NCBI GenBank assembly: GCA_024349765.1
Contig: AP026073.1
Span: 5,146,001-5,210,000 of the forward strand
From: Streptomyces nigrescens
GTDB lineage: Bacteria > Actinomycetota > Actinomycetes > Streptomycetales > Streptomycetaceae
DNA: 64,000 nt
Direction: 5' to 3'
Shown here piece by piece: positions 5,365-55,472 of the stretch; positions within the stretch are counted from its first letter, which is position 1, and each line of letters starts with the position of its first letter. The notes below the pieces were generated by a model. That model was not told where the DNA came from, made no database searches, and worked only from the letters and a program-made list of their open reading frames with translations. Position numbers and translations under genes: made by a program.

Positions 5365-6150
5365 ATGACCGGCGGAGACCGGCGGGTTGCCATTGTCACC
5401 GGTGCCACCAGCGGTATTGGGCGGGCGACTGCCGGCCACTTGGCCGCACTCGGCCTGCGGGTATTCATCTGCGCACGCAACGGCGACGCCGTGACCGACA
5501 CGGTCAAGCAGCTGCGGGACGCGGGCCACGAGGTGTCGGGAACGGCCTGCGATGTGCGTTCCACCAGTGAGGTGGGCGCGTTCGTGCGGGCCGCCGTGGA
5601 CCGGTTCGGCCCCGTTGATGTGCTGGTCAACAATGCCGGCCGCAGCGGTGGCGGGCCCACCGCGCAGATCACCGATGAATTGTGGCTGGATGTCATCGAC
5701 ACCAACCTGCACAGCGTGCTGCGGGTGAGCCGGGAAACCCTCACCACCGGAGGAATGCTCGACCGGGGGCACGGCCGGATCATCAACATCGCGTCCACCG
5801 GCGGAAAGCAGGGCGTCGTGCTCGGGGCTCCGTACTCCGCTTCCAAGCACGGTGTCATCGGTTTCACCAAGGCCCTCGGACTGGAATTGGCCAAGACCGG
5901 AATCACGGTCAATGCGGTATGCCCCGGATATGTCGAGACGCCGATGGCGCAACGGGTGCGGGAAGGGTACGCGAAGGTCTGGAACACCACCGAGGACGCC
6001 GTACTCGAACGGTTCGAGGCGAAGATCCCGCTCGGCCGCTACAGCACTCCGGAGGAAGTCGCCGGGCTGGTCGGCTACTTGATCAGCGAGGCCGCCGCCC
6101 CCATCACCGCACAGGCGATGAACGTCTGTGGCGGGCTGGGGAATTACTGA
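5365..6150 (+). CDS. Polyketide ketoreductase (act-type C-9 ketoreductase)
   Basis: Reduces one carbonyl (C-9 in reducing aromatic systems) of the nascent poly-beta-ketone using NADPH, and so directs first-ring folding. At 261 aa it has the length of ActIII. Visible motifs are the Rossmann TGATSGIG (12-19), NNAG (89-92), catalytic S144, Y157 and K161 (APYSASKHG), and the C-terminal NVCGGLGNY. The groove motif that is PGG at 94-96 in ActIII reads SGG here. ATG 5365 is chosen for the strong RBS GAGGAGG four bases upstream. It is first in an operon with the aromatase and three glycosyltransferases. Confidence 0.93.
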   Translation: MTGGDRRVAIVTGATSGIGRATAGHLAALGLRVFICARNGDAVTDTVKQLRDAGHEVSGTACDVRSTSEVGAFVRAAVDRFGPVDVLVNNAGRSGGGPTAQITDELWLDVIDTNLHSVLRVSRETLTTGGMLDRGHGRIINIASTGGKQGVVLGAPYSASKHGVIGFTKALGLELAKTGITVNAVCPGYVETPMAQRVREGYAKVWNTTEDAVLERFEAKIPLGRYSTPEEVAGLVGYLISEAAAPITAQAMNVCGGLGNY

Positions 6151-6188
6151 CACCCGATCACGCACCTCGACGCCCGGACGGGAGGACC

Positions 6189-7160
6189 ATGTCTCACCCT
6201 GCACCGCACCGAGCCGAGCACGGCATCTCGGTGGCCGCTCCTGCGCAACGGGTCTTCGACCTGATCGCGGAGGTCGGCAACTGGCCCCGGATATTCCCGC
6301 CGACGGTGTACGTGGAGTACGCCGAGCACGGCCCGACCGAGGAGCGGATACGGATCTGGGCCACCGCCAATGACGAGGTCAAGTCCTGGACCTCGCACCG
6401 CGTGCTCGACCGTGACCGGCTGGTGATCGGGTTTCGTCAAGAGGTGTCCCAGCCGCCGGTCGCGAGCATGGGTGGGCAGTGGCTCATCGAGCCGCTGGCC
6501 GCGGACCGCACCCAGGTCACGCTGCTGCACGACTACCGAGCGGTCGGCGACGACCCCGCCAACGTGGACTGGATCGAGCGTGCCGTCGACCGCAACAGCC
6601 GGGCCGAACTGGCCGCTCTGCGTGCCGCGGCGGAGCGGTCGGGGAGCCCGGACGGTCCGGAGTTCTCGTTCGAGGACGCGGTGCACGTGGCCGGCTCGGC
6701 CACGGACGTCTATGCCTTCCTCCACGCGGCAGAAGGCTGGCAGGAGCGGCTGCCGCATGTCCGCCGGGTCGTGCTCCAGGAGGACGTCCCGAATGTGCAG
6801 ACGCTGGAAATGGACACCGCCGCGCCGGACGGCTCGATCCACACCACGAAGTCCGTGCGGGTCTGCTTCCCCTTGGAGCGGATCGTCTACAAGCAGTTGC
6901 AGACGCCGGCCCTGATGTCCGTGCACACCGGTGAGTGGCGGGTCCGCGAGGAACGGGACCAGCTCGTCGTGACCTCGGCGCACACGGTGGTCATCCGGCC
7001 CGAAGCAATTCCCCAGGTCCTCGGGGAGGGTGCGACGGTCGGCGATGCCCGTGCCTTCGTCCGTGCCGCCCTGAGCCGCAACAGCACCGCCACGCTGCAT
7101 CTGGCGAAGGAGCACGCCGAGCGCCTCGCCCGGCCGGCCGGCAGCCCCGACCGGTCGTGA
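6189..7160 (+). CDS. Polyketide aromatase/cyclase, didomain
   Basis: Catalyses C7-C12 cyclisation and dehydration/aromatisation of the first ring of a C-9-reduced polyketide on the ACP. The 323-aa protein has two SRPBCC (START-like) halves: residues about 1-150, with HGISVAAPAQRVFDLIAEV and NWPRIFPPT, and about 160-310, with HVAGSATDVYAFLHAAEGWQ and ERLPHV. This is the layout of didomain ARO/CYCs that work with act-type ketoreductases (ActVII, DpsF). It starts 38 bases after the ketoreductase with RBS GGAGG. Pairing with the ketoreductase supports a reduced anthracycline- or actinorhodin-like first ring. Confidence 0.93.
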   Translation: MSHPAPHRAEHGISVAAPAQRVFDLIAEVGNWPRIFPPTVYVEYAEHGPTEERIRIWATANDEVKSWTSHRVLDRDRLVIGFRQEVSQPPVASMGGQWLIEPLAADRTQVTLLHDYRAVGDDPANVDWIERAVDRNSRAELAALRAAAERSGSPDGPEFSFEDAVHVAGSATDVYAFLHAAEGWQERLPHVRRVVLQEDVPNVQTLEMDTAAPDGSIHTTKSVRVCFPLERIVYKQLQTPALMSVHTGEWRVREERDQLVVTSAHTVVIRPEAIPQVLGEGATVGDARAFVRAALSRNSTATLHLAKEHAERLARPAGSPDRS

Positions 7161-7194
7161 TCAGCCCTGCCCTACGGCCGTCCAGGAGGACAGT

Positions 7195-8499: not shown

Positions 8500-8547
8500 A
8501 CTCGGCGCCCACTTCGGAAGTCCACCACAGAAGGGCAAGGCGGCACC

Positions 8548-9900
8548 ATGCGCGTTCTGTTCACGACGGTCCCCACGAAGGCTCCGGGCTTTCACCGGAC
8601 CGCGCTGGCGTGGGCCCTGCGAGCGGCGGGGCACGAGGTGTGCCTGGCCAACCGTCCCAATCTCGTGGAGGACATCACCCGTACCGGCCTGACCGCGGTG
8701 CCGGTGGGCACGCCGTTCCACCCGGACGACTACCTCGCGGACAGCGAGCGACAGCTCGCCGAAGCAGGGGGCGAGGGGGATTACCCGGACCCGGAGCAGC
8801 TCATGCACATGGACGAGCTCCGGCCGGAGCTGCTCGACTACACCTACATGCAGGGCGTCTTCACCACCATGACGACGTTGGTCTTCCGTCCCTTCTGCCC
8901 CACCGAAGTAGTCGACGAGCTGGTGTCCTTCGCCCGTGAATGGCGTCCCGATCTGGTGCTCTGGGATCCCTTCGTGTTCGCCGGGCCGGTGGTGGCCAAG
9001 GCGGTCGGTGCGGCCCACGCCCGGTTGCTGTACGGGCTCGACCTGATCGGGCACATGCGGGAGCACTACCTGGACGCGGTGCGCAAGCGGCCGGCGGAGC
9101 TGCGCGAGGACCCGGTCGAGGAATGGCTCGGCCCGGTCCTCGACCGCTACGACACCGCCTTCAGCGAGGACGTCGTCACCGGCCAGTGGACCATCGACCC
9201 GGTCCCCACCTCCATGCGACTACCGGTCGACCTCCCCTACCTCCCCATGCGCCACATCCCCTACAACGGCCGCGCCGTCATCCCCCACTGGCTCACCGAA
9301 CCCCCCGAACGCCCCCGGGTGTGCCTGACCCTCGGGCTGCCGCATCCAGAAGTGACCGGCGGAGACCGGCTGCCGGTCGAGCCGGTGCTGGAAGCGATGG
9401 CCGGTGTGGACGCCGAAGTGATCGCGGTGTCCGAGACCGGGCGCCTGGCAGGGGTGAGGGCCGTCCCGGACAACGTCCGGCTGGTCGACCATGTGCCGCT
9501 CAACGAGTTGCTGCCGAGTTGCTCGGCGATTGTTCACCAGGGCGATGTGTGGACCCTCCACACCGCGTTCGCGCACGGTGTTCCGCAGGTCGTACTGCCG
9601 GGTGACCTCTGGGACATCCCCATGAGGGCGGACCAGGTGCAGGAGGCGGGGGTCGGTCTGCGGCCCTTGGACGTCGCGGGAGTCACGGCCGGGGAGGTGC
9701 GCGAGATGGTCGTCCGGGTCCTGACCGATCCCGCGTTCGCACGCCGTGCCGCCGCACTGCGCGACGAGATGGTGGCCACTCCGGCACCCCGCGACCTCGT
9801 GCCCGTACTGGAGAAACTGACCGCCGAACACCGAGGCGGTGGGCGCCCGCACGGCGACCGGGGCCGCCGGAAGGGAACAACGTGCGAGTCCTCTTCTTGA
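8548..9900 (+). CDS. Glycosyltransferase 2, probably catalytically degenerate
   Basis: A 450-aa member of the same GT-B family as its neighbours, with altered catalytic sites. The N-terminal segment reads TKAPGFHRTALAW where glycosyltransferases 1, 3 and 7 read KAHLY; the His at position 13 is Pro, and a His appears at 16. The donor loop, HQGGxGT in the paralogues, reads HQGDVWT, losing a glycine and the loop pattern. The rest of the fold is intact and the frame is open, so it is not a simple pseudogene. A 237-bp block (9100-9336) is almost identical to glycosyltransferase 3. Its last 19 bases overlap the next gene. It could be inactive, structural, or use another base. Confidence 0.85.
   Translation: MRVLFTTVPTKAPGFHRTALAWALRAAGHEVCLANRPNLVEDITRTGLTAVPVGTPFHPDDYLADSERQLAEAGGEGDYPDPEQLMHMDELRPELLDYTYMQGVFTTMTTLVFRPFCPTEVVDELVSFAREWRPDLVLWDPFVFAGPVVAKAVGAAHARLLYGLDLIGHMREHYLDAVRKRPAELREDPVEEWLGPVLDRYDTAFSEDVVTGQWTIDPVPTSMRLPVDLPYLPMRHIPYNGRAVIPHWLTEPPERPRVCLTLGLPHPEVTGGDRLPVEPVLEAMAGVDAEVIAVSETGRLAGVRAVPDNVRLVDHVPLNELLPSCSAIVHQGDVWTLHTAFAHGVPQVVLPGDLWDIPMRADQVQEAGVGLRPLDVAGVTAGEVREMVVRVLTDPAFARRAAALRDEMVATPAPRDLVPVLEKLTAEHRGGGRPHGDRGRRKGTTCESSS
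9100..9336 (+). repeat. Near-identical block shared with 10437-10673 (copy 1)
   Basis: 237 bases match 10437-10673 with one mismatch (9131 G versus 10468 C), at a constant offset of 1337. A further 81 bases upstream (8983-9063 versus 10320-10400) match with two mismatches, separated by a 36-base divergent patch. Outside the block the two genes differ much more. The tract covers the inter-domain region of the glycosyltransferase, from LREDPVEEWL to VCLTLGL. Pattern as expected from gene conversion or a very recent partial duplication. Confidence 0.9.
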
Positions 9901-11192
9901 CCCTGCCGGCCAAGGCCCATCTCTATCCACAAGTACCGCTGGCCTGGGCGCTGCGGGCCGCCGGGCACGAGGTGTGCATCGCCGGCAACCCCGACCTGAC
10001 CGCGGAGATCGCCCGCACCGGCCTGACCGCGGTGCCGGTGGGGGCCGCGCTCGACCAGGCGGGCATGGTCGAGCGGAACCAGGAGCGGGAGCGGGAGCAG
10101 TCGGCACTCAGCGGGGATGGTCCGGATCCCGAAGAGCTGTTGAAATGGACCGAGTTGGAGCCCGGCGCCCTGGACCACACCGCGCTTCAGGGACTCTTCA
10201 CCGTGGCCACCACTTTGGTGTTCCGCACCTACTCGCCCGATCGCACACTGGACGAGTTGGTGGCCTTCGCCCGTGAGTGGCGCCCGGACCTGGTCATCTG
10301 GGACACGCTGGTGCTGGCGGGGCCGGTGGTGGCCAAGGCGGTCGGTGCGGCACACGCCCGGTTGCTGTACGGGCTCGATCTGATCGGGCACATGCGGGAG
10401 CAGTACCTCCACGGTCTTGATGCCCGGCCGTTGCCGCTGCGCGAGGACCCGGTCGAGGAATGGCTCGCCCCGGTCCTCGACCGCTACGACACCGCCTTCA
10501 GCGAGGACGTCGTCACCGGCCAGTGGACCATCGACCCGGTCCCCACCTCCATGCGACTACCGGTCGACCTCCCCTACCTCCCCATGCGCCACATCCCCTA
10601 CAACGGCCGCGCCGTCATCCCCCACTGGCTCACCGAACCCCCCGAACGCCCCCGGGTGTGCCTGACCCTCGGGTTGTCGTTGCGCGAGGTGCTGGGGGGT
10701 GACCGTGCTTCGGTACGGACTCTGCTGGACGCCGTGGCGGATCTGGACCTGGAGGTGGTCGCGACCTTGGACGCCGAGCAGCTGTCGGGGGTGTCCCGTC
10801 TGCCGGACAACGTCCGGGCGTTCGACTTCGTCCCTCTCAACGAGCTGCTGCCGAGCTGCTCGGCGATCGTGCATCAAGGAGGCTTCGGCCAGGTGCAGAC
10901 CGCGCTGGCGCATGGCGTCCCTCAGCTGAGTCTGCCCAACGGGCAGTGGGACACGGTGCCGCGCGCACAACAGATACAGGACAGCGGAGTGGGACTGCGC
11001 GCGGCGGACGTGGACCACTGCGAGGCCGGAGATCTGCGGCAGATGCTGGTCCGCCTGGTGGAGGAGCCGGCGTTCGCCCGCACCGCCGCCGCCGTGCGGG
11101 GCGAGATGCTGGCCACCCCCGCCCCTCACGACATCGTGCCCGTACTGGAGCGGCTCTCCGCGGAACACCGCCTGCCGGCGGGACCGGCCTGA
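9882..11192 (+). CDS. Glycosyltransferase 3 (GT1/GT-B, natural-product type)
   Basis: A 436-aa glycosyltransferase with His13 in AKAHLYPQVP and the donor loop IVHQGGFGQVQTA. The GTG start at 9882 lies inside the end of glycosyltransferase 2, behind GGAAGGGAAC, which suggests translational coupling. The middle of the gene (10437-10673) repeats glycosyltransferase 2 with one mismatch. It ends one base before the stop of the convergent SDR gene. Loop residue Q replaces the usual Thr/Ser after GGFG, a milder change than in its neighbour. Sugar and acceptor unknown. Confidence 0.9.
   Translation: MRVLFLTLPAKAHLYPQVPLAWALRAAGHEVCIAGNPDLTAEIARTGLTAVPVGAALDQAGMVERNQEREREQSALSGDGPDPEELLKWTELEPGALDHTALQGLFTVATTLVFRTYSPDRTLDELVAFAREWRPDLVIWDTLVLAGPVVAKAVGAAHARLLYGLDLIGHMREQYLHGLDARPLPLREDPVEEWLAPVLDRYDTAFSEDVVTGQWTIDPVPTSMRLPVDLPYLPMRHIPYNGRAVIPHWLTEPPERPRVCLTLGLSLREVLGGDRASVRTLLDAVADLDLEVVATLDAEQLSGVSRLPDNVRAFDFVPLNELLPSCSAIVHQGGFGQVQTALAHGVPQLSLPNGQWDTVPRAQQIQDSGVGLRAADVDHCEAGDLRQMLVRLVEEPAFARTAAAVRGEMLATPAPHDIVPVLERLSAEHRLPAGPA
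10437..10673 (+). repeat. Near-identical block shared with 9100-9336 (copy 2)
   Basis: Second copy of the 237-base block, in glycosyltransferase 3. Codons inside the block are strongly C-ending (runs such as CCCCCCGAACGCCCCC), unlike the G/T-mixed codons just after it, which suggests that the block has its own history. Confidence 0.9.
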
Positions 11193-13130: not shown

Positions 13131-13153
13131 CCGCCACGAAGGGAGGCACCACT

Positions 13154-13954
13154 GTGGACGGCAACGCGCCCACCAGCGCCGAGGATCTGTCCCCGGAATG
13201 CGTCGAACGGTACCGCCGCGAGGGCTTCGTCCATGTGCCGGGTGTGCTCACCCCGGCAGAGGTCGAGGAGTTCCGCACCGGCGGGACGGAGCTCCTGGGC
13301 CAGGACGACAAGACCCATTGGGGGGACCGGAGCGGCACCGTTCTCGACTTCGTGGAGCATGCCCAGCTCCGCAGTGCGGCGATGCTGCGGCTCGCCCTGC
13401 ATCCCCGTGTGGCGAGCCTCGCGGAGCGCCTGGCAGGCACCTCGCTGCGGCTCTTCAAGCTCGAACTGCTGCGCAAGGGGACCGGAAGGTCCAAGCCCAC
13501 CGAGCCGCACTTCGACGCGTTCGCACTCCCCGTGGACGAGGCGCCGGCGACGCTGACGGCATGGGTGGCACTCGTGGACGTGCCGGTCGAGCGCGGCTGC
13601 ATGACCTTTGTGCCGGGCTCCCATCTGCTGCCTCCGCCGGAGGTGACGGCCCATGCCTGGGCGGCGTACGACCGGCCCGAGGTGGCCTGGCTCCCCCGGG
13701 TCACGGTCCCGCTGCGAGCCGGTGACTGCACCTTCCACCACGCGCGTACGGTCCATGCGGCCGGCGCCAATGCGTCGGACGCCCCGCGCATCTCGGCGAC
13801 CACGGTCTATGCGGACGCCGGCGCCGTCTACCGCCCCACCGGGAACCAGGGGCTCGACGAGCTGCCCGGCGCCGGCCTCCTCGTACCGGGACAGCGGCTC
13901 GACGACGACCGTTTCCCGCTGCTGAGCCCCGGTGTGCACCGGCCGGCCGACTGA
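13154..13954 (+). CDS. PhyH-family Fe(II)/2-oxoglutarate dioxygenase (copy 1)
   Basis: A 266-aa phytanoyl-CoA-dioxygenase-fold enzyme. The iron triad is visible: H119-x-D121 in EPHFDAF and H201 in ARTVHAAGAN, with the 2-oxoglutarate-binding Arg at 212 (APRIS). The family signature ERGCMTFVPGSH is present. GTG 13154 is chosen because GGGAGG lies eight bases upstream. In nogalamycin biosynthesis, relatives SnoK and SnoN form a carbon-carbon bond to an amino sugar and epimerise it; hydroxylation is the other common role. It converges on the nitrososynthase gene with a strong hairpin between them. Confidence 0.87.
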   Translation: MDGNAPTSAEDLSPECVERYRREGFVHVPGVLTPAEVEEFRTGGTELLGQDDKTHWGDRSGTVLDFVEHAQLRSAAMLRLALHPRVASLAERLAGTSLRLFKLELLRKGTGRSKPTEPHFDAFALPVDEAPATLTAWVALVDVPVERGCMTFVPGSHLLPPPEVTAHAWAAYDRPEVAWLPRVTVPLRAGDCTFHHARTVHAAGANASDAPRISATTVYADAGAVYRPTGNQGLDELPGAGLLVPGQRLDDDRFPLLSPGVHRPAD

Positions 13955-15280: not shown

Positions 15281-15467
15281 CGCGTTCCCCGCATTCTCCG
15301 TGTCATCATCCATCAATGCCGGCCGGTTGGGGGCCGACAAGTCGCATACTTTCGCGCCGGCTTCGAGATCCACTAGAAGCGGGCGGTCCAGCGGCACTCC
15401 AACGTTTTTCAAGCGTCCGCGACAAACATCGTGCCGGCGGAGCCAACCCATCCCATGGAGTGCAGCT

Positions 15468-16766: not shown

Positions 16767-17378
16767 ATGGAGTCGCGGAATCTCGCCGTCGCGGGCGCTT
16801 TCGAGTTCCGGCCGCGGGTATTCACCGATGACCGTGGAATATTCGTCTCGCCGTTCCAGGAAACCGCGGCGCACACCGCTCTCGGGCGGCCGCTGTTCCC
16901 CGTCAGACAGACCAACCACAGCCGCTCACGCCGCGGTGTGGTGCGCGGTGCCCATTTCACCCTGACGCCTCCCGGCTGCGCCAAGTACGTGTACTGCGCC
17001 CAGGGCAAGGCGCTGGACATCGTCATCGACATCAGGGTGGGCTCGCCGACGTACCGCCGGTGGGATGCGGTCACGCTCGACCCGGTGGAATTCCGCGCCG
17101 TCTATTTCCCGGTCGGTGTGGCGCACGCCTTCGTGGCGCTGGCGGACGACACGGTCATGTCCTACATGCTGTCGGGCGAGTACGTACCGCAGAACGAGCT
17201 GGCGTTGTCGGTGTTCGACGAGACCCTGGGCCTGCCGATTCCGAAGGGCATCGAACCGGTGCTGTCCGAACGGGACGACGGCGCACCCTCGCTCGCCGAG
17301 CTGGAGGCCTCCGGGACCCTGCCCCGGTACGCCCACTGCCTGGAGCTCGAAGCGGCACTGGACGCCGGTGACCGGTGA
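16767..17378 (+). CDS. dTDP-4-keto-6-deoxyhexose 3,5- (or 5-) epimerase
   Basis: RmlC-like cupin that epimerises C-5 (and possibly C-3) of the 4-keto sugar, giving the L-series. The 203-aa protein shows TDDRGIF, RQTNHSRSRRGVVRGAHF with the catalytic His, and YFPVGVAHAFVALADD. ATG 16767 is preferred because GAGGAC is eight bases upstream; the ATG two codons earlier is too close. Its stop overlaps the next start (GTGA). Relatives are EvaD, TylK, DnmU and SnogF. Only one such epimerase is seen, so it probably serves all L-sugars made here. Confidence 0.9.
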   Translation: MESRNLAVAGAFEFRPRVFTDDRGIFVSPFQETAAHTALGRPLFPVRQTNHSRSRRGVVRGAHFTLTPPGCAKYVYCAQGKALDIVIDIRVGSPTYRRWDAVTLDPVEFRAVYFPVGVAHAFVALADDTVMSYMLSGEYVPQNELALSVFDETLGLPIPKGIEPVLSERDDGAPSLAELEASGTLPRYAHCLELEAALDAGDR

Positions 17379-31536: not shown

Positions 31537-31643
31537 GGATTCCCCAAGGTGGAAGAGGGTGTTGTCGGGCACGGTGTCAGCACCGGCTCGCCGTCCGATC
31601 GACGGAGAGTGGAGCCGCGCGGGGACCGCATGGCCAGCGGGTC

Positions 31644-40610: not shown

Positions 40611-40633
40611 CGCTCCACCTCCGGTCTTGCCGC

Positions 40634-46218: not shown

Positions 46219-47835
46219 TCACCCCGCCCGCTCGACCGACAGTGCGTGACGGAACACGTCCAGCGGGTCCCACCGCTTCTTGGCCCGCTGGAGCCGTCGG
46301 TAGTTGTCCCCGTAGTACAGGGCGTGCCACGGCACCCCTGATGTGTTCCACTGCGGGTCCGCCAGGTCCGTGTCGGGGTAGTTGATGTAGGCGCCGCCGT
46401 TGCGGTCGTCGGGCACCGGAACTCCGCCGCTGTCGGAGAAGAGGTCCCGGTAGAAACCGCGGATCCAGGCCAACTGGCCGTCCCGGCCGCGCGGATCGCC
46501 CCAGCACGTCTCGTACACCGCGCTGAACAGTGCGTCGCGGTGCGGCATCGCGGTCGCTGTGGAAGGCACCGAGTTCATCCTTCCGCCGACCGACGTCAGC
46601 GTCACGGCCGTGCCCCAGCGTTCACCGCCGCTCTGGTTGAGGAAGCGCCAGATGACGTCGACCTGCCCGTCCGTCCAGGGCCTGCGGAGGAAGCCGGCCT
46701 TCGTCTTGAACTCCACCCTTTGCAGACTCTGGGGCACCGAGAGCGTGTTCCTCAGCCAGCTGACCGTGGACCTCTCGACGCGGGACGGTATGCCGAGGTC
46801 CTGGGTCAGTTCCTCGGCGTAGCGGTCGAGCAGACGGGCGGCCCCGGACCGACCGGCGTCCAGGGACGCGTTCACGGTGATCGGCCCGGCTTCACGGTGT
46901 CCCAATGTCAGCCCGCTGGCCAGGTCGGCGTAGGGCGAGTCACTGCCCGCGTGGCTTTGGTGCCACTGCCCGTATCTGCGCACGACGGCGCGGAACGCCT
47001 CCTGGGACATCTTGTCCCACTCCCAGGTGATGGCGACGTTGTGCAGGGCCCCGGGCGGACGGGGCAGCAGCGCGGCCGGGTCGGTACCGCGGGCGTGGGG
47101 GGACCGGAACCAATAGCGGGTGACGATCCCGAAATTGCCTCCGCCGCCTCCCGTGTGCGCCCACCACAGCTCTCTGTTGGGGTCGTCGACGGCGCCGGTG
47201 GCCGTCACCCGGTGGGCGCGCCCGGAGGCGTCCACGACGACGACCTCGACGGCGTGCAGATGGTCGACCGCCAGCCCGTACTGCCGCGACAGCGGCCCGT
47301 ATCCGCCTCCCGTCACATGCCCGCCGACCCCGACGTCGGGGCACGCGCCACCGGGTACGGTCACGCCCCAGCCGAGGAACAACGTCCGGTAGAGCTGCCC
47401 GAGGGTGGCGCCCGACTCCACGGCGAAGGCACTCCGCCGCTCGTCGAAGCGCACCTCCGCCATCTCCGACACGTCCAGCAGTACCTGGACGGCCGGGTCG
47501 TCGACGAAGTTCTCGTAGCAGTGCCCCCCACTGCGCACCGCGATCCGCCGGCCGGCCCGTACCGCGTCCTGGACCACCCGCTCCGTCTGCTCGGCCGAGC
47601 CGACCACATGGATGACGCCGGGATGCCCGACGAACCGGCTGTTTCGACCTCGGCTCGCCAGATCCTGATAGCGGATGTCGCCTTCGACGACTTCGGCACC
47701 ACCGAACGGAGAGTCGCATTCCACATTGGCGACCGTCGCCGCGTTTACCGGAAATGTCCCGCTACCCAGAAATAACCCGCCCACAGCGGCAGTTCCACCG
47801 ACAAAGCCGCGCCGCGTCACCCCGTCCTTCATCAT
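46219..47835 (-). CDS. Exported FAD-dependent sugar oxidase (AknOx-like, BBE family)
   Basis: A 538-aa flavoprotein with a twin-arginine signal (TRRGFVGGTAAVGGLFLGSG), so it is probably exported folded. The vanillyl-alcohol-oxidase-type FAD domain carries two expected covalent FAD links: His105 in RSGGHCYENF and Cys165 in PGGACPDVGVGGHVTGGG, 60 residues apart as in aclacinomycin oxidoreductase (H70/C130). The C-terminus has YINYPDTDL with the likely catalytic Tyr and KKRWDPLDVFRHAL. AknOx oxidises the terminal rhodinose of aclacinomycin in two steps. Here it may oxidise a terminal sugar outside the cell. ATG 47835 lies behind GGGGGAGG. Confidence 0.87.
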   Translation of the reverse strand: MMKDGVTRRGFVGGTAAVGGLFLGSGTFPVNAATVANVECDSPFGGAEVVEGDIRYQDLASRGRNSRFVGHPGVIHVVGSAEQTERVVQDAVRAGRRIAVRSGGHCYENFVDDPAVQVLLDVSEMAEVRFDERRSAFAVESGATLGQLYRTLFLGWGVTVPGGACPDVGVGGHVTGGGYGPLSRQYGLAVDHLHAVEVVVVDASGRAHRVTATGAVDDPNRELWWAHTGGGGGNFGIVTRYWFRSPHARGTDPAALLPRPPGALHNVAITWEWDKMSQEAFRAVVRRYGQWHQSHAGSDSPYADLASGLTLGHREAGPITVNASLDAGRSGAARLLDRYAEELTQDLGIPSRVERSTVSWLRNTLSVPQSLQRVEFKTKAGFLRRPWTDGQVDVIWRFLNQSGGERWGTAVTLTSVGGRMNSVPSTATAMPHRDALFSAVYETCWGDPRGRDGQLAWIRGFYRDLFSDSGGVPVPDDRNGGAYINYPDTDLADPQWNTSGVPWHALYYGDNYRRLQRAKKRWDPLDVFRHALSVERAG

Positions 47836-48150: not shown

Positions 48151-49227
48151 GTGTCATCCGATTTAGCGTCGTTCCTGGAAGATCACGAAGACGGAATCCT
48201 GCATGCCTATCGCACAGCATTGAAGGCCACGGGCCATCCGGCGGCCGAGGATGCGGCGAAAGAAAAGCAACTCACCGTACATTCCCGTAGCGTAATTTCC
48301 GACGTCATCGGCGAGCTGCGCTTCTCCCCACCGCGGGGCGACTCCCCACCCGGCCGTCCCCACGACTCCGCGCCCGATCCGGGAACGGCGGAGCGCGAGC
48401 GGGGGCCCGAGGCCGTGCCCGCGGAAACCCTGATCTTCGACCTGGTGCTGCACAAGCTGGTCCAGCACGTCGCGCCCCACGGTGAACAGACCCACCACCT
48501 GGAGCACGCCGTACGCACCCTCTACCGGAGGCTCACCGACGACCTGCGCGCCGAATCCGCCGCCCGGTACGACAAGTTGCTCGCCGAGCTGTACGACGCC
48601 CAGACCGCCGAGCGGGCCCGGCTCGCGCGCGAGCTCCACGACCGTGCGGGCTACTGGCTGAGCGTGGCCCACCGCGGGATGGAGGAGCTGTGCTCCCCGG
48701 CCCCCGGTGCGCCGGCACCGCTCCCGGCGCGCGCCGCGGACGCGGTGGAAGGGGCGCACTCCGCCGTCCTCGAAGCCATGCACAGCCTGCGTGCCACCAC
48801 CACGAGCCTTCGGCTGACCGAACCGGTGACCAGCCTGGAGACGGCGCTGGAGGCCGCATTGGCCGCGCTGTCCACGGAGGTCACCGTGCGGCTGCAGATG
48901 ACCGGGGACGAAGCCTGGGCACCACCCGACGTCAAGGACGAGATCTTCCTCATCGTGCGCGAGGCGGTCCGCAACGCCGTGGTGCACGGAAGCCCCGGGC
49001 TCGTCGTGGTCGGCGTACAGATCGCGCCGCACGAGCTGCGGGCCCACGTCGACGACGACGGCCGTGGTTTCGCGCACCAGGTCCGGCACAGCACCGACGG
49101 GGTCGGACTGGCGACCATGCAGGAACGGGCCGAAGCCCTCAACGGGCGGTGCACGGTGACCTCCGCGGTCGGCCGGGGGACCCGGGTGGAGATCTGCATC
49201 CCCCTCCAGGAGCAGACCGATGCATAA
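48151..49227 (+). CDS. Soluble NarL-type sensor histidine kinase
   Basis: A 358-aa kinase with no membrane segment. Residues 1-140 resemble the RsbRD-type helical sensor domain (HEDGILHAYRTALKA, HKLVQHVAPHGEQTHHLEHA). The HisKA_3 phospho-acceptor is H163 in RARLARELHDRAGYWL. The HATPase domain shows VREAVRNAVVHG, DDDGRGF and GVGLATMQERA. It overlaps the response regulator gene by eight bases, so the pair is coupled. The GTG start has only a weak RBS. The signal is presumably cytosolic. Given its place inside the cluster it may be pathway-specific. Confidence 0.88.
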   Translation: MSSDLASFLEDHEDGILHAYRTALKATGHPAAEDAAKEKQLTVHSRSVISDVIGELRFSPPRGDSPPGRPHDSAPDPGTAERERGPEAVPAETLIFDLVLHKLVQHVAPHGEQTHHLEHAVRTLYRRLTDDLRAESAARYDKLLAELYDAQTAERARLARELHDRAGYWLSVAHRGMEELCSPAPGAPAPLPARAADAVEGAHSAVLEAMHSLRATTTSLRLTEPVTSLETALEAALAALSTEVTVRLQMTGDEAWAPPDVKDEIFLIVREAVRNAVVHGSPGLVVVGVQIAPHELRAHVDDDGRGFAHQVRHSTDGVGLATMQERAEALNGRCTVTSAVGRGTRVEICIPLQEQTDA

Positions 49228-50026
49228 CGGCAACGAACCGATATCCGTCCTGCTCGCGGACGATCATGCACTGCTGCGCGAGGGCGTCCGGGAGATGCTG
49301 GAGGCCCAGGACGACGTGACCGTCGTCGGGGAGGCCAGCGACAGCTGGAGCGCCGTGGAACTCGCCACCGAACTGCGCCCGCGCATCATGCTGCTGGACA
49401 TCGAGATGCCGGGAGAGGACGCCGCCAGCACGATCACGCGGGTCCGGAAGCTGTCGCCGGGAACCGCCGTCATCATCCTGAGCATGTTCGAAGGACCGCA
49501 GCTGCTGCGCAGTCTGATGGCGACCGGCATCCGCGGCTACCTCCTCAAGAGCTCCACCCGGCAGGAGCTGGTCTCCGCCATCCGCAGCATCGCCGGCGAC
49601 GACAAACGCGTGGTGCTCTCCGTCTCGCACGAGACCCTCGCGCTCGTGCAACGCCCCGGAGACATCGCGCTGTCCCCACGAGAGCGGGAAATCCTGCAGC
49701 TCACCGCGGAAGCCCTGAGCAACCGGCAGATAGCGGCCCGACTGCGACTGTCCGAGGCCACGGTGAAACGGAACCTGCGAAGCATCTTCACCAAGCTCGG
49801 TGCCGCCTCCCGTATCGACGCGGTCAACAAGGCCGTCAGCGCGTCCCTCATCGCCGTGAACGGCTCGGGTACGGCCGCGGACCCGCCGACGGCCGGCCCG
49901 GGATCCCCCGGCGCCTCTCTCCGGGACGGGCATCAGGGGAGTCACGAGGGGCTCCAGCAGTCCTCCAGCAATGGCGCCCGGCGGGCCCTCCGCTGCGCGG
50001 GGACGTCCCCTCCGGACGGCGGCTGA
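49220..50026 (+). CDS. NarL/FixJ-family response regulator
   Basis: A 268-aa two-domain regulator. The receiver domain has the acidic pair DD (14-15), phospho-acceptor D60 in LLDIEMPG, and the Lys in YLLKSS. The LuxR-type helix-turn-helix is SPREREILQLTAEALSNRQI to KRNLRSIFTKLGA. A Ser/Gly/Pro-rich tail of about 50 residues follows the DNA-binding domain, longer than usual. It is the partner of the overlapping kinase and ends before a hairpin at 50049-50078. Confidence 0.92.
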   Translation: MHNGNEPISVLLADDHALLREGVREMLEAQDDVTVVGEASDSWSAVELATELRPRIMLLDIEMPGEDAASTITRVRKLSPGTAVIILSMFEGPQLLRSLMATGIRGYLLKSSTRQELVSAIRSIAGDDKRVVLSVSHETLALVQRPGDIALSPREREILQLTAEALSNRQIAARLRLSEATVKRNLRSIFTKLGAASRIDAVNKAVSASLIAVNGSGTAADPPTAGPGSPGASLRDGHQGSHEGLQQSSSNGARRALRCAGTSPPDGG

Positions 50027-50048
50027 CACCGGCGCAGCTCCCCTCGGG

Positions 50049-50257: not shown

Positions 50258-52246
50258 ATGGATTTACGCGTCCTCGGCCCGGTGGAAATGATTCACGACG
50301 GACGCAATATTGTGCCGACGGCTCCCAAGCCTCGGCAGGTCATATCTCTTCTGCTGCTCCGCAGAAACACGGTGGTCCGCACCGAGGAGCTCATCGACGA
50401 ACTGTGGGAGGGCGACGGCGGCCCACCCACCAGCGCCATGACCACGCTGCAGACCTACGTTTACAAGCTCCGCAAAATTCTGGTGGCGCACGAGGCGGGA
50501 AACGTACTGCGCACGAGACCTGGTGGATACCTGCTCGCAGTGCCGAACTCCGCACTCGACCTGTGCCGATTCGAGCAGGCGGCCTGCGAGGGGCAAGCAC
50601 TGCTGGAATCCGACCATCCGGCCCAAGCGTCCGAAAAGCTTGCGGGCGCGCTGGCACTCTGGCGCGGCCAGGCACTGGCCGATGTGGTGCAGGGCGCGCT
50701 GTTGTCGTCGTACGCCACGCGGCTCGAGGAACTCCGCTCCCGTGCCCTGGAATTGCGCATCGAAGCGGACCTCCGGCTCGGCCAGCATCGGGAACTCATC
50801 AGCGAGTTGAAGGCGCTGGTGCTCACCAAACCGCTGCACGAACATCTGCACGCCTCGCTGATGATCGCGCTGCATCGCTCCGGCCGGCGGCACGAGGCCC
50901 TCGAAACGTACCGCACGTTGCGGCGCAACATGATCGACGAACTCGGCCTGGAGCCGGGTGCCGAACTCCAGGAAGTCCACCAGGCGTTGCTGTCCGACTC
51001 CGCCCTCCACCGCACCCCGGGACCCTCGGCGTTCGACCCCGTCGACCGGGAGCGCACGACCCTGCCACCGGTACCCGCTCCCGCCGCGTCCGACGAACCC
51101 TTGCCGCAGGCTACCTCCCCGGTGCCCCTCGTGGCTCCTGAACACATCCCGTCCCAAATCCCCGCCGACACACCGGACTTCTGCGGCCGGCAGGGTGCGA
51201 TCGAGGAATTGACCAGCCGGCTGGCCCCGCCGGAAACCGGTACGCAGCGCACCGCCACACCCATCGTGACGATCAGCGGATTGCCCGGGGTGGGAAAGAC
51301 CGCGCTCGCCGTCCACCTCGCGCACCGTATCCGCGCACGGTTCGACGGCGGTCAGCTCTACGCCCGGCTGGAGGGCTCCAGCACCGCCCCGCGCGACCCC
51401 GCCGACGTGCTCGACGGCTTTCTGCGCGCCCTGGGCATTGCGCCACGGCGGATCCCCGAGGGCCTGGAGGAACGCGGGGCGGCCCTTCGCTCCGCCACTG
51501 CGGGGCGGCGCGTGCTGCTGGTCCTGGACGACGTCGCGTCCTGGGCCGATGCGCGGGCACTGCTGCCCGGCGACGCCGGGTGTGCCGTCATCATCACCGG
51601 TCGGCGGAGGTTCCACGGACCGGCCGGATCCGCCGGTGTGGATCTCGACCCCATGGGACGGGCGGACAGCGTACGGCTGCTGACCCGGCTGGTGGGACCC
51701 GATCGCGCCCAACGCGAACAGCAGGCGATCGACCGGCTGGCCGCGCTGAGCGACGGTCTGCCGCTCGCCCTGCGCTGTCTCGGCGGACGGCTCGCCACCC
51801 TCCCGGAGCTCTCCGTCGCAGAGCTGGTGGACCAGCTGGCCGACGCCGAAGCACCACTGGAGCTGATGCGCATCGGCGACCTCGATGTGCGATCGGGCTT
51901 CGACACCGGCTACGCAGGTCTCAACCGGTTGCAGCAAGGGGTCTTCCGCCTGCTTGCCATGCTGCCTGCCGAGGGCTTCACCACGGAGGCGGCGAGTGAA
52001 CTGCTCGGCTGGGAGCCGTCCGACGTGGCCCGGGTGCTCGACCGGCTCGCGGACGAACACCTGATCAAGGCCGTGCGCCAAGCCGACGGCCACCTGGGCT
52101 ACGCCTTCCCTCCGCTGGTGCTCGGTTACGCACGGGAGCGGCTGATGTCCGCCCTGGCAGGTGGACAGCGGGCCCCGTGGACGGGGGACGGCCCGACCGC
52201 CGGTGAGCACCACCCCTGGAGCGGGAACCAGTTGACGATGGCCTGA
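50258..52246 (+). CDS. SARP-family activator with NB-ARC domain (AfsR-like, short)
   Basis: A 662-aa regulator. Residues 1-95 are an OmpR-like winged helix (MDLRVLGPVEM, TAMTTLQTYVYKLRK-type segment, RTRPGGYLLAV); about 100-245 is the bacterial transcriptional activation domain (LHEHLHASLMIALHRSGRRH, EALETYRTLRR). After a Pro-rich linker comes an NB-ARC ATPase with Walker A GLPGVGKTAL (about 341-350) and Walker B VLLVLDDV, then an arm domain to about 630. The TPR domain of AfsR is missing. SARPs activate antibiotic clusters by binding direct repeats near -10/-35. RBS GGGGGAAC precedes the ATG. Confidence 0.93.
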   Translation: MDLRVLGPVEMIHDGRNIVPTAPKPRQVISLLLLRRNTVVRTEELIDELWEGDGGPPTSAMTTLQTYVYKLRKILVAHEAGNVLRTRPGGYLLAVPNSALDLCRFEQAACEGQALLESDHPAQASEKLAGALALWRGQALADVVQGALLSSYATRLEELRSRALELRIEADLRLGQHRELISELKALVLTKPLHEHLHASLMIALHRSGRRHEALETYRTLRRNMIDELGLEPGAELQEVHQALLSDSALHRTPGPSAFDPVDRERTTLPPVPAPAASDEPLPQATSPVPLVAPEHIPSQIPADTPDFCGRQGAIEELTSRLAPPETGTQRTATPIVTISGLPGVGKTALAVHLAHRIRARFDGGQLYARLEGSSTAPRDPADVLDGFLRALGIAPRRIPEGLEERGAALRSATAGRRVLLVLDDVASWADARALLPGDAGCAVIITGRRRFHGPAGSAGVDLDPMGRADSVRLLTRLVGPDRAQREQQAIDRLAALSDGLPLALRCLGGRLATLPELSVAELVDQLADAEAPLELMRIGDLDVRSGFDTGYAGLNRLQQGVFRLLAMLPAEGFTTEAASELLGWEPSDVARVLDRLADEHLIKAVRQADGHLGYAFPPLVLGYARERLMSALAGGQRAPWTGDGPTAGEHHPWSGNQLTMA

Positions 52247-52349
52247 GGAACGCCGTCCGCGACCGGAGCCGACCCTCGCCCGGGCGCGGCCCAGGGCGAC
52301 ATCCTCGGCACGGACGGCCGCCACGGAATCGCGGCTCGGAGGAGATCTG

Positions 52350-53654
52350 ATGAGAGTGCTGTTCACCTCACCGCCGGCCAAGGCGCACCTCTACGCGCAG
52401 GTGCCGCTGGCCTGGGCACTGCGCACGGCCGGTCATGAGGTGGTGATGGCCAATCGGCCCAACATGGCGGCGGAGATCACCCGGACCGGGCTCACGGCAG
52501 TACCCGTAGGGCCGGCCTTCGACCCGAGCGCCTACATCCCCCGGGACGGCGAGGCGGAGAAACCGTCGCGCGCCACCGCTCCCTGGGCGTCGTGGGACCA
52601 GGACCTGGAATTCGCCGAACTGCGGCCCGAGCGGCTGACACACGACTACATGCAGGCCGTGCACGCCGCCTGGACCGTCATGTTCCAGGGTGTGTCGCCG
52701 CTGCCGCTCATCGATGATCTGGTCGGCTTCGCCCGCTGGTGGCGACCAGACCTGGTCATCTGGGACACCATGGCGTTCGCCGCTCCGGTGGCCGCCCGGG
52801 TCTGCGGCGCGGCGCACGCCCGCGCACTGTTCGGGCTCGACCTGATCGCCCACATGCGCTCCACCTACCTCCACGAGCAGGCCAGGCGGCCGCGGCAGCT
52901 GCGCGACGATCCCCTGGAGGAATGGCTGGAGCCGATTCTCGCGCAGTACGGCCACTCCTTCGACGAGGAAATGGTCGTGGGGCAGTGGACCATCGATCCA
53001 CTGCTCCCGTCGATGCGCCTCCCGGTACGCCACCCCTACATGTCGGTCCGCTACGTCCCGTACAACGGCCAGGCGGTCGTTCCGGACCTGCTGCGGAAGC
53101 CACCGGCCGGGCGCCGCGTGTGCCTGACGCTCGGGCTGACGGCACGGGAGGTGCTCAACGCCGACCGGGTCCCGGTCGACACCGTGCTCCAGGCGGTGGC
53201 CGGGCTCGACGCGGAGGTGATCGCGACCCTCAACGCCGATCAGCTGGCAACGATCTCCCGGGTGCCGGACAACGTACGCACGATCGACTTCGTGCCCATG
53301 AACGAACTCCTGCCGAGCTGTTCCGCCGTCATCCACCAAGGTGGCTTCGGCACCCTGCAGACCGCCGTGGCGCACGGCGTGCCCCAGGTCATCCTCCCGC
53401 CCCGGGCCGGCGACTGGGACAGCATGGTGTGGGCGCGCAAGGTCGAGGAGTCGGGAGCCGGCGTGTGTGTGCCGAACACGGAGCGGGTCACTGCCCAGGA
53501 GCTGCGCGGCACACTGGACGCCGTACTGGAGCAGCCGTCGTTCCGGCGGGCGGCAGCCGGCCTACGGGCCGAGATGCTGGGTACGCCCTCTCCGCTCGAT
53601 ATCGTCCCCCTGATCGAGGAGAGGGTGGCCGCCCACCGGACCGATGCCCGGTGA
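52350..53654 (+). CDS. Glycosyltransferase 7 (GT1/GT-B, paralogue of 1-3)
   Basis: A 434-aa enzyme with His13 in AKAHLYAQVPLAW and donor loop VIHQGGFGTLQTAVAHGVPQ. It shares the WTIDP, MRLPV, YNG and LTLGL landmarks of glycosyltransferases 1-3 although it lies 41 kb away, pointing to duplication and relocation. RBS GGAGGAG precedes ATG 52350. It follows the SARP gene by 103 bases and converges on the ABC permease gene, seven bases apart. Confidence 0.9.
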   Translation: MRVLFTSPPAKAHLYAQVPLAWALRTAGHEVVMANRPNMAAEITRTGLTAVPVGPAFDPSAYIPRDGEAEKPSRATAPWASWDQDLEFAELRPERLTHDYMQAVHAAWTVMFQGVSPLPLIDDLVGFARWWRPDLVIWDTMAFAAPVAARVCGAAHARALFGLDLIAHMRSTYLHEQARRPRQLRDDPLEEWLEPILAQYGHSFDEEMVVGQWTIDPLLPSMRLPVRHPYMSVRYVPYNGQAVVPDLLRKPPAGRRVCLTLGLTAREVLNADRVPVDTVLQAVAGLDAEVIATLNADQLATISRVPDNVRTIDFVPMNELLPSCSAVIHQGGFGTLQTAVAHGVPQVILPPRAGDWDSMVWARKVEESGAGVCVPNTERVTAQELRGTLDAVLEQPSFRRAAAGLRAEMLGTPSPLDIVPLIEERVAAHRTDAR

Positions 53655-53661
53655 TCCCGCC

Positions 53662-54513
53662 TCAGGCCACCACGCGGCGGGTGAACGACCGCATCCCGAA
53701 CCACCCCACCACCAGGGTCCCCACCACAAGCACGGTGACCGTGAGAGCGGCCGGCATGTGGGCGATCTGCGGGGTCAGTGCCGCGCGCAGGCCTTCGCTG
53801 AGATAGACCATCGGGTTGACCAGGACGAGGATCTGCAGCCACGCGATGCTGCTCATGGCACTCCATGAGTAATAGACGCAGCCCAGCATGGTCATGGGCA
53901 GCAGCACCACGGTGAAGAGCATCTGGACCTTCTCCGGGGAGATGAGCGTACCCATCAGCAGGCCGGTGGCGGCGGCCAGCAGGGATCCGGCCACCAACAC
54001 GACAAGGAACAAGGGCCAGTTGGCGATCTCGATATCGGGCGCCTGCCCCTCCGCGTGGATGAACACCACGGCGGGCAGGACCAGCAACCCGCCCAACAGC
54101 CCCTGGAGCCCCGCTGCCAGCGTCTTCTGGATCCCCAGCAGCGGAATCGACAGGGGCGCGAGCGCCCGTTCAGTGATCGAGCGCTGCCAGGACAGCTCCA
54201 TCATCAGGGGCATGACGGCCGCCATCATGGCCTGCATCACCACCGATGACCCGATCAGGCCGGGGACCAACACGGTGGAGTAGGTCGGGCCGTTTCCCCG
54301 CCCGGAGAACATCCCGCCGTCGGCGCTCCCCAATTTCGGCAGCACATAGGCGAACACGAAGACGAAGAACAGCGGCTGGCTCAGCACCCGGACGAAGGTG
54401 GAAGCAAAGTTCCGCCGCATCACCCGCAGTTCGCGAGCCATCATCGCGAGAAAGGTGCGAGCGGTCGTGGGGCGAACGGCCAACTGATCGGTCAGGAGGG
54501 AAGAGGTGGTCAT
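53662..54513 (-). CDS. drrB: ABC-2 type permease of a drug exporter (DrrB-like)
   Basis: A 283-aa membrane protein with about six transmembrane helices (PLFFVFVFAYVLP, STVLVPGLIGSSVVMQAMM, LLGGLLVLPAVVFI, LFLVVLVAGSLLAAATGLLM, LFTVVLLPMTMLGCVYYSW, ALTVTVLVVGTLVVGWF), the layout of DrrB. It pairs with the ATPase just upstream (ATGA overlap) to export the product and give self-resistance. Located at the right edge of the cluster. Confidence 0.92.
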   Translation of the reverse strand: MTTSSLLTDQLAVRPTTARTFLAMMARELRVMRRNFASTFVRVLSQPLFFVFVFAYVLPKLGSADGGMFSGRGNGPTYSTVLVPGLIGSSVVMQAMMAAVMPLMMELSWQRSITERALAPLSIPLLGIQKTLAAGLQGLLGGLLVLPAVVFIHAEGQAPDIEIANWPLFLVVLVAGSLLAAATGLLMGTLISPEKVQMLFTVVLLPMTMLGCVYYSWSAMSSIAWLQILVLVNPMVYLSEGLRAALTPQIAHMPAALTVTVLVVGTLVVGWFGMRSFTRRVVA

Positions 54514-55472
54514 TCGCGGAACTCCCGTCCGGTGAGGCTGAGGAAGGCGGTCTCCAGACTGGGCTGGGTCCGGGTGATGTCGGTGATGCCCACCGAGGCG
54601 TCGTTGCCGATGGCGACGAGCTCTCCCATCAGCCCATCCGCGGACCGGGTGAACACCCGCGCCTGATTGCCGGTGGTCTCCACCCCTTGAACCCCTGGCC
54701 GGTCCTTGAGCCCGTGGACGCCCTCCGGTGCCGGCCCGTCGTAGGTCACCGTGACCACGGTGTCCGCCCCCGACGTCTCCTTCAGCCCGGCCACGGTGCC
54801 GCTGGCGAGGACCGCACCGTGGTCGATGATCGCCACCTGCTCACAGAGCTCTTCGGCCTCCTCCATGTAGTGCGTGGTGAGCAGGATCGTCTGCCCACCG
54901 GCCTGGAGCTCGCGCAGAACCTTCCACAGGTTGACGCGGGTGTGCGGGTCAAGGCCGGCGGTCGGCTCGTCCAGGAAGAGGACCTCGGGACGGTGTACCA
55001 GGGCCCGGCAGATCATGAGGCGCTTGGCCTGGCCGCCCGAGAGTTCGAAGGGATTGGCCTTGCGCCGGTCGGCCAGGTCGAACAGCTCCAGCAGGCTCTC
55101 GGCCCGGCGCCGCGCGTCCCGCTTCCCGAGTCCGAAGTACCGGCCGCGGAATTCCAGGTTCTCGATCGCCGTGAGGTCGCTGTCCAGCGAATTGTGCTGC
55201 GACACCATACCGATGAGTCGTTTGACGGCGACCGGCTGCCGGACGACGTCGTACCCGCAGACGGTGGCCGCTCCCGCCGTGGGAATGACCAAGGTGGTGA
55301 GCATGCCGATCGTCGTCGATTTACCCGCCCCGTTGGGCCCTAATAAACCGAAGAACTCGCCACGTGGCACGGTCAGATCGACACCGCGTACGGCGGACAC
55401 CTCACCCCCCTTGCTCACATAGGTCTTTCGTAGGTTCGCCGTCCGGACAGCGAACTCAGATTCCGAAGGCAC
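54510..55472 (-). CDS. drrA: ABC transporter ATPase (DrrA-like)
   Basis: A 320-aa ATPase powering the DrrB-like permease. Walker A LLGPNGAGKSTTIGML, signature LSGGQAKRLMICRAL, Walker B VLFLDEPTAGLD and the switch His region LLTTHYMEEAEELC are intact; the C-terminal extension (about 235-320) resembles the DrrA regulatory tail. The start is set at GTG 55472, behind AAAGGGGAAG; an upstream GTG at 55511 has no RBS. The preferred substrate is presumably the glycosylated polyketide. Confidence 0.92.
   Translation of the reverse strand: MPSESEFAVRTANLRKTYVSKGGEVSAVRGVDLTVPRGEFFGLLGPNGAGKSTTIGMLTTLVIPTAGAATVCGYDVVRQPVAVKRLIGMVSQHNSLDSDLTAIENLEFRGRYFGLGKRDARRRAESLLELFDLADRRKANPFELSGGQAKRLMICRALVHRPEVLFLDEPTAGLDPHTRVNLWKVLRELQAGGQTILLTTHYMEEAEELCEQVAIIDHGAVLASGTVAGLKETSGADTVVTVTYDGPAPEGVHGLKDRPGVQGVETTGNQARVFTRSADGLMGELVAIGNDASVGITDITRTQPSLETAFLSLTGREFRE

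Follow-up and report, generated by a model that had tools for sequence, protein, structure and literature searches.

A nitro-sugar, nogalamycin-type gene island in Streptomyces nigrescens lacks SnoaC- and SnoaL-type genes and encodes a candidate alternative fourth-ring cyclase

In the nogalamycin route, SnoaC O-methylates a tricyclic acid, SnoaL (or Kyc34 in keyicin) closes it, and SnoaF carries out the reduction at C-7 (PMC9764417). Closure of the fourth ring is attributed to SnoaL-family cyclases that act on the methyl ester (PMC9764417, PMC12281474). Keyicin (kyc, Micromonospora sp. WMMB235) is a nogalamycin-type compound with a nitro sugar and a long glycan (PMC12187902, PMC11990799), and keyicin and arugomycin are said to differ in their glycans only (PMC11990799). 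Here we describe a window of 64,000 nucleotides from Streptomyces nigrescens (GCA_024349765.1, contig AP026073.1, positions 5,146,001 to 5,210,000) that carries a type II polyketide synthase (PKS) cluster at 4273–55418, from the gene of an NmrA-like reductase to the end of a DrrA-type ATPase gene. Judged by its gene content, the island that holds this cluster is an intact-looking pathway for a nogalamycin-type, nitro-sugar glycoside. The search for a SnoaC-like methyltransferase and a SnoaL-type cyclase revealed neither in the cluster. It does encode a muconolactone-isomerase-like protein of 97 aa (25494–25787, + strand), our candidate for a methyl-ester-independent fourth-ring cyclase.

The cluster resembles that of nogalamycin (sno, Streptomyces nogalater; compared through its described gene content) in its counterparts of SnoK, SnoN, and SnogD, and in having a ketoreductase, an aromatase, a PF04199 cyclase, an ABM oxygenase, and a SnoO-like protein. 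It differs in having no counterpart of SnoaC or SnoaL and no member of PF07366, the family of SnoaL and of the cyclase-like SnoaL2, and in adding a nitrososynthase, seven glycosyltransferases, and the isomerase-like protein. Keyicin shares the nitro sugar, the nogalamycin-type class, and the long glycan, whereas with Kyc34 it has a SnoaL-like cyclase for nogalonic acid methyl ester (PMC9764417). The ketoreductase, first-ring aromatase, second/third-ring cyclase, and anthrone oxygenase of the anthracycline route were all present in the window, and so was the complete nitro-sugar set of 2,3-dehydratase, aminotransferase, C-methyltransferase, and nitrososynthase.

A sequence-only reading of the window had listed the main biosynthetic genes and proposed an anthracycline-like, nogalamycin-type glycoside with nitro and dimethylamino sugars and a long glycan. 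Gene calls, Pfam, NCBIfam, and solved structures recovered the whole of that inventory, with matches far beyond chance. The glycoside class stood, through the matches to SnoK, SnoN, SnogD, and nitrososynthases; an ordinary anthracyclinone route did not, as genes of the SnoaC and SnoaL types are missing from the cluster. Neither this absence nor the isomerase-like protein was on its list. It had also not recognized the enzyme combination as a described cluster. The combination is not unique, since we found clusters of this kind in nine further genomes.

Among 391 other genomes drawn from the genus, 12 encoded SnoK-like proteins, nine of them with 59–63% identity and three (G120, G276, and G341) with 35–42%. 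A search with a ten-sequence alignment gave 11 loci, and these 11 genomes and four more made up the 15 comparison genomes. All 15 had a nitrososynthase (E 1e-50 or better; the matches in G393 and G395 contain one internal stop) and a close ketosynthase alpha (KS-alpha). NF033407, the model for SnoaL/DnrD methyl-ester cyclases, exceeded its cut-off of 200 bits in six of the 16 genomes (264–273 bits), and these constitute type 1: Micromonospora HNM0581, S. glomeratus, S. swartbergensis (G395), G090, G230, and G094. Genome-wide, it exceeded the cut-off in none of the ten type 2 genomes, namely those of the window, Thermomonospora echinospora DSM 43163, Actinomadura craniellae, Actinomadura sp. 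KC345, S. pseudovenezuelae, Kitasatospora sp. SUK 42, Streptomyces sp. NRRL S-337, C10-9-1, Root1304, and G310; the best score in the window genome was 49 bits, outside the window. Two gene sets are incomplete, that of KC345 because its cluster is spread over more than one contig and that of S. glomeratus because its contig is cut. Keyicin was placed with type 1, outside type 2, because Kyc34 is SnoaL-like.

The SnoaC-like methyltransferase had the same distribution. It was present with 66–69% identity to the query in the same six type 1 genomes, the best match in the other 13 of 19 genomes being 40%; the query is taken to be SnoaC-type, in part by its position beside SnoaL. T. echinospora has a 40% homologue on a contig other than that of its cluster. 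No PF07366 protein, such as the SnoaL2-type partner of the two-component 1-hydroxylase, was found within the window. T. echinospora has one (58 bits) on the contig of its cluster, about 20 kb past the end of the cluster-like genes; another, of 28 bits, is encoded by A. craniellae. Both fail NF033407 at 1e-10. The type 1 genomes G090 and G230 and the cut S. glomeratus contig showed only one PF07366 protein each, and a SnoaL2-type protein may not be essential to nogalamycin-type clusters.

Ketoreductase, aromatase, PF04199 cyclase, and ABM oxygenase were common to the clusters of both types. The nine contiguous type 2 clusters share a second sugar C-methyltransferase, an RmlD-type reductase, and a MycE-type O-methyltransferase, with no type 1 orthologues. 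The isomerase-like protein was encoded in all ten type 2 genomes (72–100% identity) and in none of the six type 1 genomes. The other three of these four type 2-only genes are sugar genes by family; the fourth, 25494–25787, is the cyclase candidate.

The candidate belongs to PF02426 (37.3 bits, cut-off 26.7) and has the size of chloromuconolactone dehalogenases and muconolactone isomerases. Its nearest solved structures are 5-chloromuconolactone dehalogenases (33 bits to 4fpi); 1mli scored 17 bits. It reached 29 bits with the NCBIfam equivalog model, whose cut-off is 131, and is therefore no catechol-pathway isomerase by that model. Unlike the gene of a muconolactone isomerase, it has no catechol-pathway genes nearby and is linked to type II PKS and Rieske oxygenase genes. 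The ten sequences have 62 invariant residues (computed list). In T. echinospora, the gene heads a same-strand run with those of the ABM oxygenase, KS-alpha, chain length factor (CLF), and acyl carrier protein. At E 1e-8, the protein was found in eight of the 391 other genomes of the genus: five of type 2, G343, G300, and G168. A phylum-wide draw of 395 other genomes contained none at E 1e-15.

In G343, the protein (73% identity) is encoded in a type II PKS cluster that has PF04199 cyclase, ABM, short-chain dehydrogenase/reductase (SDR), and SnoO-like genes. SnoK, SnogD, and nitrososynthase were undetected in the 80 kb examined there, and SnoaL and SnoaC types were absent genome-wide. This smaller cluster (contig C8, about 94000–118000) also contains a Rieske gene, MycE-type O-methyltransferases, and one glycosyltransferase with its activator. 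It offers a simpler system for the isomerase-like protein.

The pathway suggested by these genes can be outlined as follows. The PKS and its partner enzymes would produce a C-9-reduced, ABM-oxidized tricyclic acid like nogalonic acid. As the genes for the SnoaC methyl ester and the SnoaL aldol closure are absent, the aglycone would bypass both steps. The isomerase-like protein would act on the free acid to form ring four, possibly releasing CO2, and leave C-10 without a carbomethoxy group; the SDR at 31644 would then reduce the C-7 ketone. Since type 2 clusters keep this SDR, the C-7 ketone, and thus ring four, is presumably still made. The 2,3-dehydratase, 3-aminotransferase, C-methyltransferase, and nitrososynthase should yield a 3-C-methyl-3-nitro sugar, and the seven glycosyltransferases with their two activators would attach the deoxysugars. 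By specific homology, a SnogD-type transfer, SnoK-type C–C bond formation, and SnoN-type epimerization would give a bicyclic dimethylamino sugar. The exported flavin adenine dinucleotide (FAD) oxidase may act last, on the outer sugars, and DrrAB would export the product. We put the pathway class, nitro-sugar and nogalamycin-type, together with a methyl-ester-independent route to the aglycone, at about two chances in three; the identity of the last enzyme is a separate matter. For that missing step, closure by the isomerase-like protein is the mechanism we favor, tentatively, at well below even odds and from sequence comparison. It is a slightly bolder and still less certain proposal that the protein represents a new class of fourth-ring cyclases, replacing SnoaC and SnoaL across a branch of nogalamycin-type clusters by free-acid closure, possibly a decarboxylative aldol reaction, and giving nitro-sugar anthracyclines free of the C-10 ester.

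Several observations weigh against the cyclase assignment or limit its support. That ring four closes at all is deduced from the presumed function of the SDR at 31644. The AlphaFold model of the isomerase-like protein is weak (predicted local distance difference test score, pLDDT, 55). The 16 clusters are related and are not 16 independent events, and the odds of 1 in 8008 for the type-exclusive distribution assume independence. In the nitrososynthase tree, a branch with support of 97 separates type 1 from the rest. The KS/CLF tree places the window's group with type 1 members (96/96) and suggests two switches between types, although the approximately unbiased test does not reject type 2 as one clade (p 0.153). 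The proximity of the candidate gene to a Rieske gene also gives substance to another function, the main rival, which we regard as a serious contender though short of even odds: the protein would be a helper or partner of the neighboring Rieske oxygenase, or act on its product, with ring four closed by an unrecognized or spontaneous step, or with an aglycone that is not a linear tetracycle. The two genes adjoin in five of the six type 2 clusters examined for neighbors (the window, A. craniellae, S. pseudovenezuelae, Kitasatospora SUK 42, and NRRL S-337) and are one gene apart in G343. The relatives in the two Streptomyces genomes G300 and G168 (57–59%) likewise lie near a Rieske gene, in a nonribosomal peptide synthetase-like neighborhood with AMP-ligase, carrier protein, thioesterase, and PhyH genes and no recognized type II PKS. 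Such a role fits poorly with four of the six type 1 clusters, which have a Rieske gene of the same family without the isomerase-like protein, and with T. echinospora, where the gene stands in the PKS run, distant from the Rieske gene.

An ordinary 10-carbomethoxy aglycone of the nogalamycin/keyicin/arugomycin type, made with a methyltransferase and a cyclase encoded at other sites in the genome, is improbable. Help in trans is conceivable, as the window genome encodes a SnoaC-like homologue of 38% identity (C1:4078422–4079261), which stands alone about 1.07 Mb from the cluster, and four PF07366 matches outside the window, the best at C2:473908 (128 bits). This methyltransferase was matched in only one other type 2 genome (E 1e-25), however, and none of the ten type 2 genomes offers a protein above the NF033407 cut-off. 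Even less probable is closure by the SnoO-like protein of SnoaL_4/NTF2 fold at 35893–36345 (- strand), which has the overall fold family of SnoaL and occurs in all type 2 clusters examined. It also accompanies a real SnoaL in five of the six type 1 clusters, and its predicted model is closest to ActVI-ORFA, so we rejected it as the ring-four cyclase. Homologues of ActVI-ORFA include SnoO of nogalamycin, and the ActVI-ORFA cavity is described as being without the SnoaL residues (PMC11315284). The SAM (S-adenosylmethionine) methyltransferase at 22572–23396 (- strand; PF13649) was considered as a SnoaC substitute and likewise rejected: it is outside the SnoaC-like orthogroup and is present in just two type 2 clusters, those of the window and T. 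echinospora (60% identity).

The nearest cluster found was that of T. echinospora, with 81% identity in KS-alpha. This cluster and those of A. craniellae and KC345 match the window in KS-alpha (79–81%), nitrososynthase (70–72%), isomerase-like protein (76–79%), and the lack of a SnoaL type, and differ from it in gene order; T. echinospora has in addition a second aminotransferase-like gene and more glycosyltransferases. The clusters of S. pseudovenezuelae, Kitasatospora SUK 42, NRRL S-337, C10-9-1, Root1304, and G310 have the same type-specific gene set, with KS-alpha at 74–76% and fewer glycosyltransferase genes. Among these, the gene-called clusters of G396, G398, and NRRL S-337 (G402) each have one N-methyltransferase and one Rieske gene more than the window. 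Five of the six type 1 clusters encode a Gfo/Idh-type oxidoreductase that is probably a sugar 3-ketoreductase. Four of the six type 1 clusters (G230, G090, S. swartbergensis, and G094) encode an alpha/beta hydrolase together with a DnrK/RdmB-like protein of a methyltransferase family, neither of which NCBIfam named above cut-off; we take this pair to resemble the RdmC/RdmB pair of C-10 ester removal and hydroxylation.

The remaining genes are described below by window position and strand. The minimal PKS lies at 40353–43116 and consists of an acyl carrier protein (40353–40610, -; PF00550), the CLF (40634–41851, -), and KS-alpha (41848–43116, -; PF00109/PF02801). The actinorhodin CLF (1tqy_B) is the closest solved structure to the CLF (482 bits), and the gate residues are F/G/L as against F/T/F in that protein. 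Small-residue CLF gates of the F/G/L type are associated with decaketides, the chain length proposed in the sequence-only reading. An ABM-family oxygenase (43113–43475, -; PF03992) would act as the SnoaB-type anthrone oxygenase. The act-type polyketide ketoreductase (5365–6150, +; PF00106) had 71–81% homologues in 11 of 13 record sets compared. It is followed by the aromatase/cyclase of 309 aa (6231–7160, +; PF10604/PF03364), in which Pfam gave a single polyketide-cyclase stretch, so that its earlier description as a didomain enzyme rests on length. The second/third-ring cyclase (36527–37306, +; PF04199), SnoaM-type by family, has 73–80% homologues in related clusters of both types. The SDR (31644–32375, -; PF13561) is a predicted SnoaF-like C-7 ketoreductase by its neighbors: in Micromonospora HNM0581 its homologue adjoins genes of the SnoaC and SnoaL types, in S. 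swartbergensis the SnoaL gene, and in G343 the ABM gene. The NmrA-like NAD(P)-binding reductase (4273–5022, -; PF13460/PF05368) has homologues of 61–68% in the contiguous type 2 clusters, and was included in the cluster because most related clusters have one.

The seven glycosyltransferases are all of the EryCIII type. Five belong to the activator-dependent family by TIGR04516: 7195–8499 (+, 561 bits), 8548–9900 (+, 541 bits), 9882–11192 (+, 572 bits), 27008–28306 (-, 550 bits), and 52356–53654 (+, 531 bits). That at 44994–46217 (+; PF06722) reached 273 bits, under the cut-off of 440, and that at 30370–31572 (-) is SnogD-like (456 bits to SnogD 4amb, next match 257). The two auxiliary proteins of the sequence-only reading proved to be P450-derived activators, both without the heme-Cys motif (pattern check): one at 19920–21194 (+; TIGR04515, 453 bits, cut-off 343) and a second at 28346–29563 (-), which with 318 bits is under that cut-off. 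Its two PhyH enzymes could be told apart. The protein at 29574–30362 (-) is SnoK-like (375 bits to SnoK 5epa, 204 to SnoN), keeps the HDD motif and the distal His in the alignment, and by analogy would be the carbocyclase forming the C–C bond between amino sugar and aglycone. The protein at 13154–13954 (+), a Fe(II)/2-oxoglutarate enzyme with an HxD motif at residues 119–121, is SnoN-like (304 bits to SnoN 5ep9, 206 to SnoK) and by analogy an amino-sugar epimerase.

The nitrososynthase (14054–15373, -), predicted to oxidize a 3-amino sugar toward the nitro sugar, matched the solved structures 4kcf and 3m9v (482 bits), which we take to be KijD3, 3mxl, entered as a nitrososynthase (448 bits), and DnmZ (439 bits), in line with its earlier naming as nitrososynthase-like; the full range to nitrososynthase entries was 439–483 bits, and the next unrelated match, acyl-CoA dehydrogenase-like, reached only 125. 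The other nucleoside diphosphate (NDP)-sugar genes encode a glucose-1-phosphate nucleotidylyltransferase (38111–38992, -; PF00483), an NDP-glucose 4,6-dehydratase family protein (24343–25341, -; PF16363), an NDP-hexose 2,3-dehydratase (18382–19845, +; PF03559, 538 bits), a DegT-type aminotransferase (39166–40275, +; PF01041, 355 bits), a 3,5-epimerase family protein (16767–17378, +; PF00908), and three epimerase/ketoreductase family proteins of PF01370 (11193–11972, -; 12168–13130, +; 17444–18349, +). The first of these three was considered as a truncated gene, which we rejected since related clusters have equally short ones (241–256 aa). A sugar C-methyltransferase (15468–16706, +; PF08484) regains its N-terminal domain with the GTG start at 15468 in place of the automatic call at 15642. 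The type 2-only sugar genes encode the second C-methyltransferase (21295–22506, +; PF08484), with orthologues in the nine contiguous type 2 clusters, the window included, and in none of the six of type 1; the RmlD-type 4-ketoreductase (23486–24346, -; PF04321, 319 bits); and the MycE/TylE-type sugar O-methyltransferase (43775–44947, +; PF17843; 328 bits to 3ssm, 324 to 8ia9). The DesVI-type sugar N,N-dimethyltransferase (37351–38061, +) scored 294 bits to CalS10 and 269 to the N,N-dimethyltransferase 3bxo.

Tailoring genes include that of the Rieske oxygenase alpha subunit (25812–27011, -; PF00355/PF00848), with a CxH..CxxH motif, and that of the FAD/BBE oxidase (46219–47835, -; PF01565/PF08031), a predicted exported sugar oxidase whose N-terminus is Tat-like (twin-arginine translocation; MMKDGVTRRGF..) if the ATG at 47835 is taken in place of the automatic start at 47724. 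A mycothiol-dependent nitroreductase family protein (32480–33127, -; PF22234, 185 bits; Rv2466c-like) was found in nitro-sugar clusters of both types (the window, six other type 2, and two type 1), and might serve in self-protection or act on the nitro sugar. An aldehyde dehydrogenase (33156–34637, -; PF00171), unsure as a pathway member, had no full-length counterpart above 38% in 13 record sets and none in three further ones, and it scored 668 bits with the phenylacetaldehyde dehydrogenase model, whose cut-off is 800. The regulators are a LuxR-family protein with no counterpart in the compared clusters (34692–35747, -; PF00196), a two-component system (48151–50026, +) of histidine kinase (48151–49227; PF02518) and LuxR-type response regulator (49220–50026; PF00072, PF00196), and a SARP-type activator with an NB-ARC domain (50372–52246, +; PF03704). 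The DrrAB-type ABC transporter (53662–55418, -) comprises a membrane part (53662–54513; drrB model, 42 bits, under cut-off) and an ATPase (54510–55418; TIGR01188 drrA, 316 bits, cut-off 312).

A codon-model gene caller predicted 58 genes in the window, which comes from a genome of 9.33 Mb in two contigs. The whole island of 52 kb (3975–55842, no strand assigned) is missing from Streptomyces sp. NRRL S-337 at the corresponding site, which has 1.69 kb instead: in blastn, the flanks were 92–96% identical, with the alignment ending at 3974 and restarting at 55843. GC content is about 0.66–0.72 within the island and 0.71–0.76 in the flanks, and the right flank is widespread in Streptomyces, with matches in 47 of 61 genomes searched. 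No tRNA was detected in the window, and no integrase-like gene among genes 4–53, those scanned with Pfam. A plasmid collection gave a best SnoK match of 38% and no cluster, and the viral contigs searched held no relative. About 7 kb from the island's site, NRRL S-337 (contig C42 of G402) carries a diverged type 2 cluster of its own in place of part of gene 61769–62836. Comparison of the window (3975–55842 and 62307–62842) with this contig showed two diverged type 2 clusters with matching stretches of about 70–89% identity. Each strain thus has the other's site without that cluster, part of 61769–62836 being also gone in NRRL S-337; the pattern may stem from two separate arrivals at a single locus or from movement.

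The product of the cluster may already have been described, in the viriplanin, decilorubicin, or respinomycin group for instance. Titles and excerpts of the literature on arugomycin, viriplanin, decilorubicin, decilonitrose, cororubicin, and respinomycin contained no gene cluster description, and those on muconolactone isomerases and polyketides (including PMC4835899) mentioned no polyketide cyclase of this kind. A search that left most of the subscription literature uncovered found no nitro-sugar nogalamycin-type cluster without SnoaL, which is weak evidence of novelty. The class of nitro-sugar, nogalamycin-type glycosides is already known; what would be new is a branch that bypasses the methyl ester, with its candidate cyclase. 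Ten genomes with an otherwise nogalamycin-type pathway but neither SnoaC nor SnoaL allow a direct test of an alternative closure, for which a protein of 97 aa and a known class of substrate are at hand. If the isomerase-like protein is indeed a cyclase, it would be an added part for engineered anthracyclines, and variation at C-10 would be explained without later removal of the ester.

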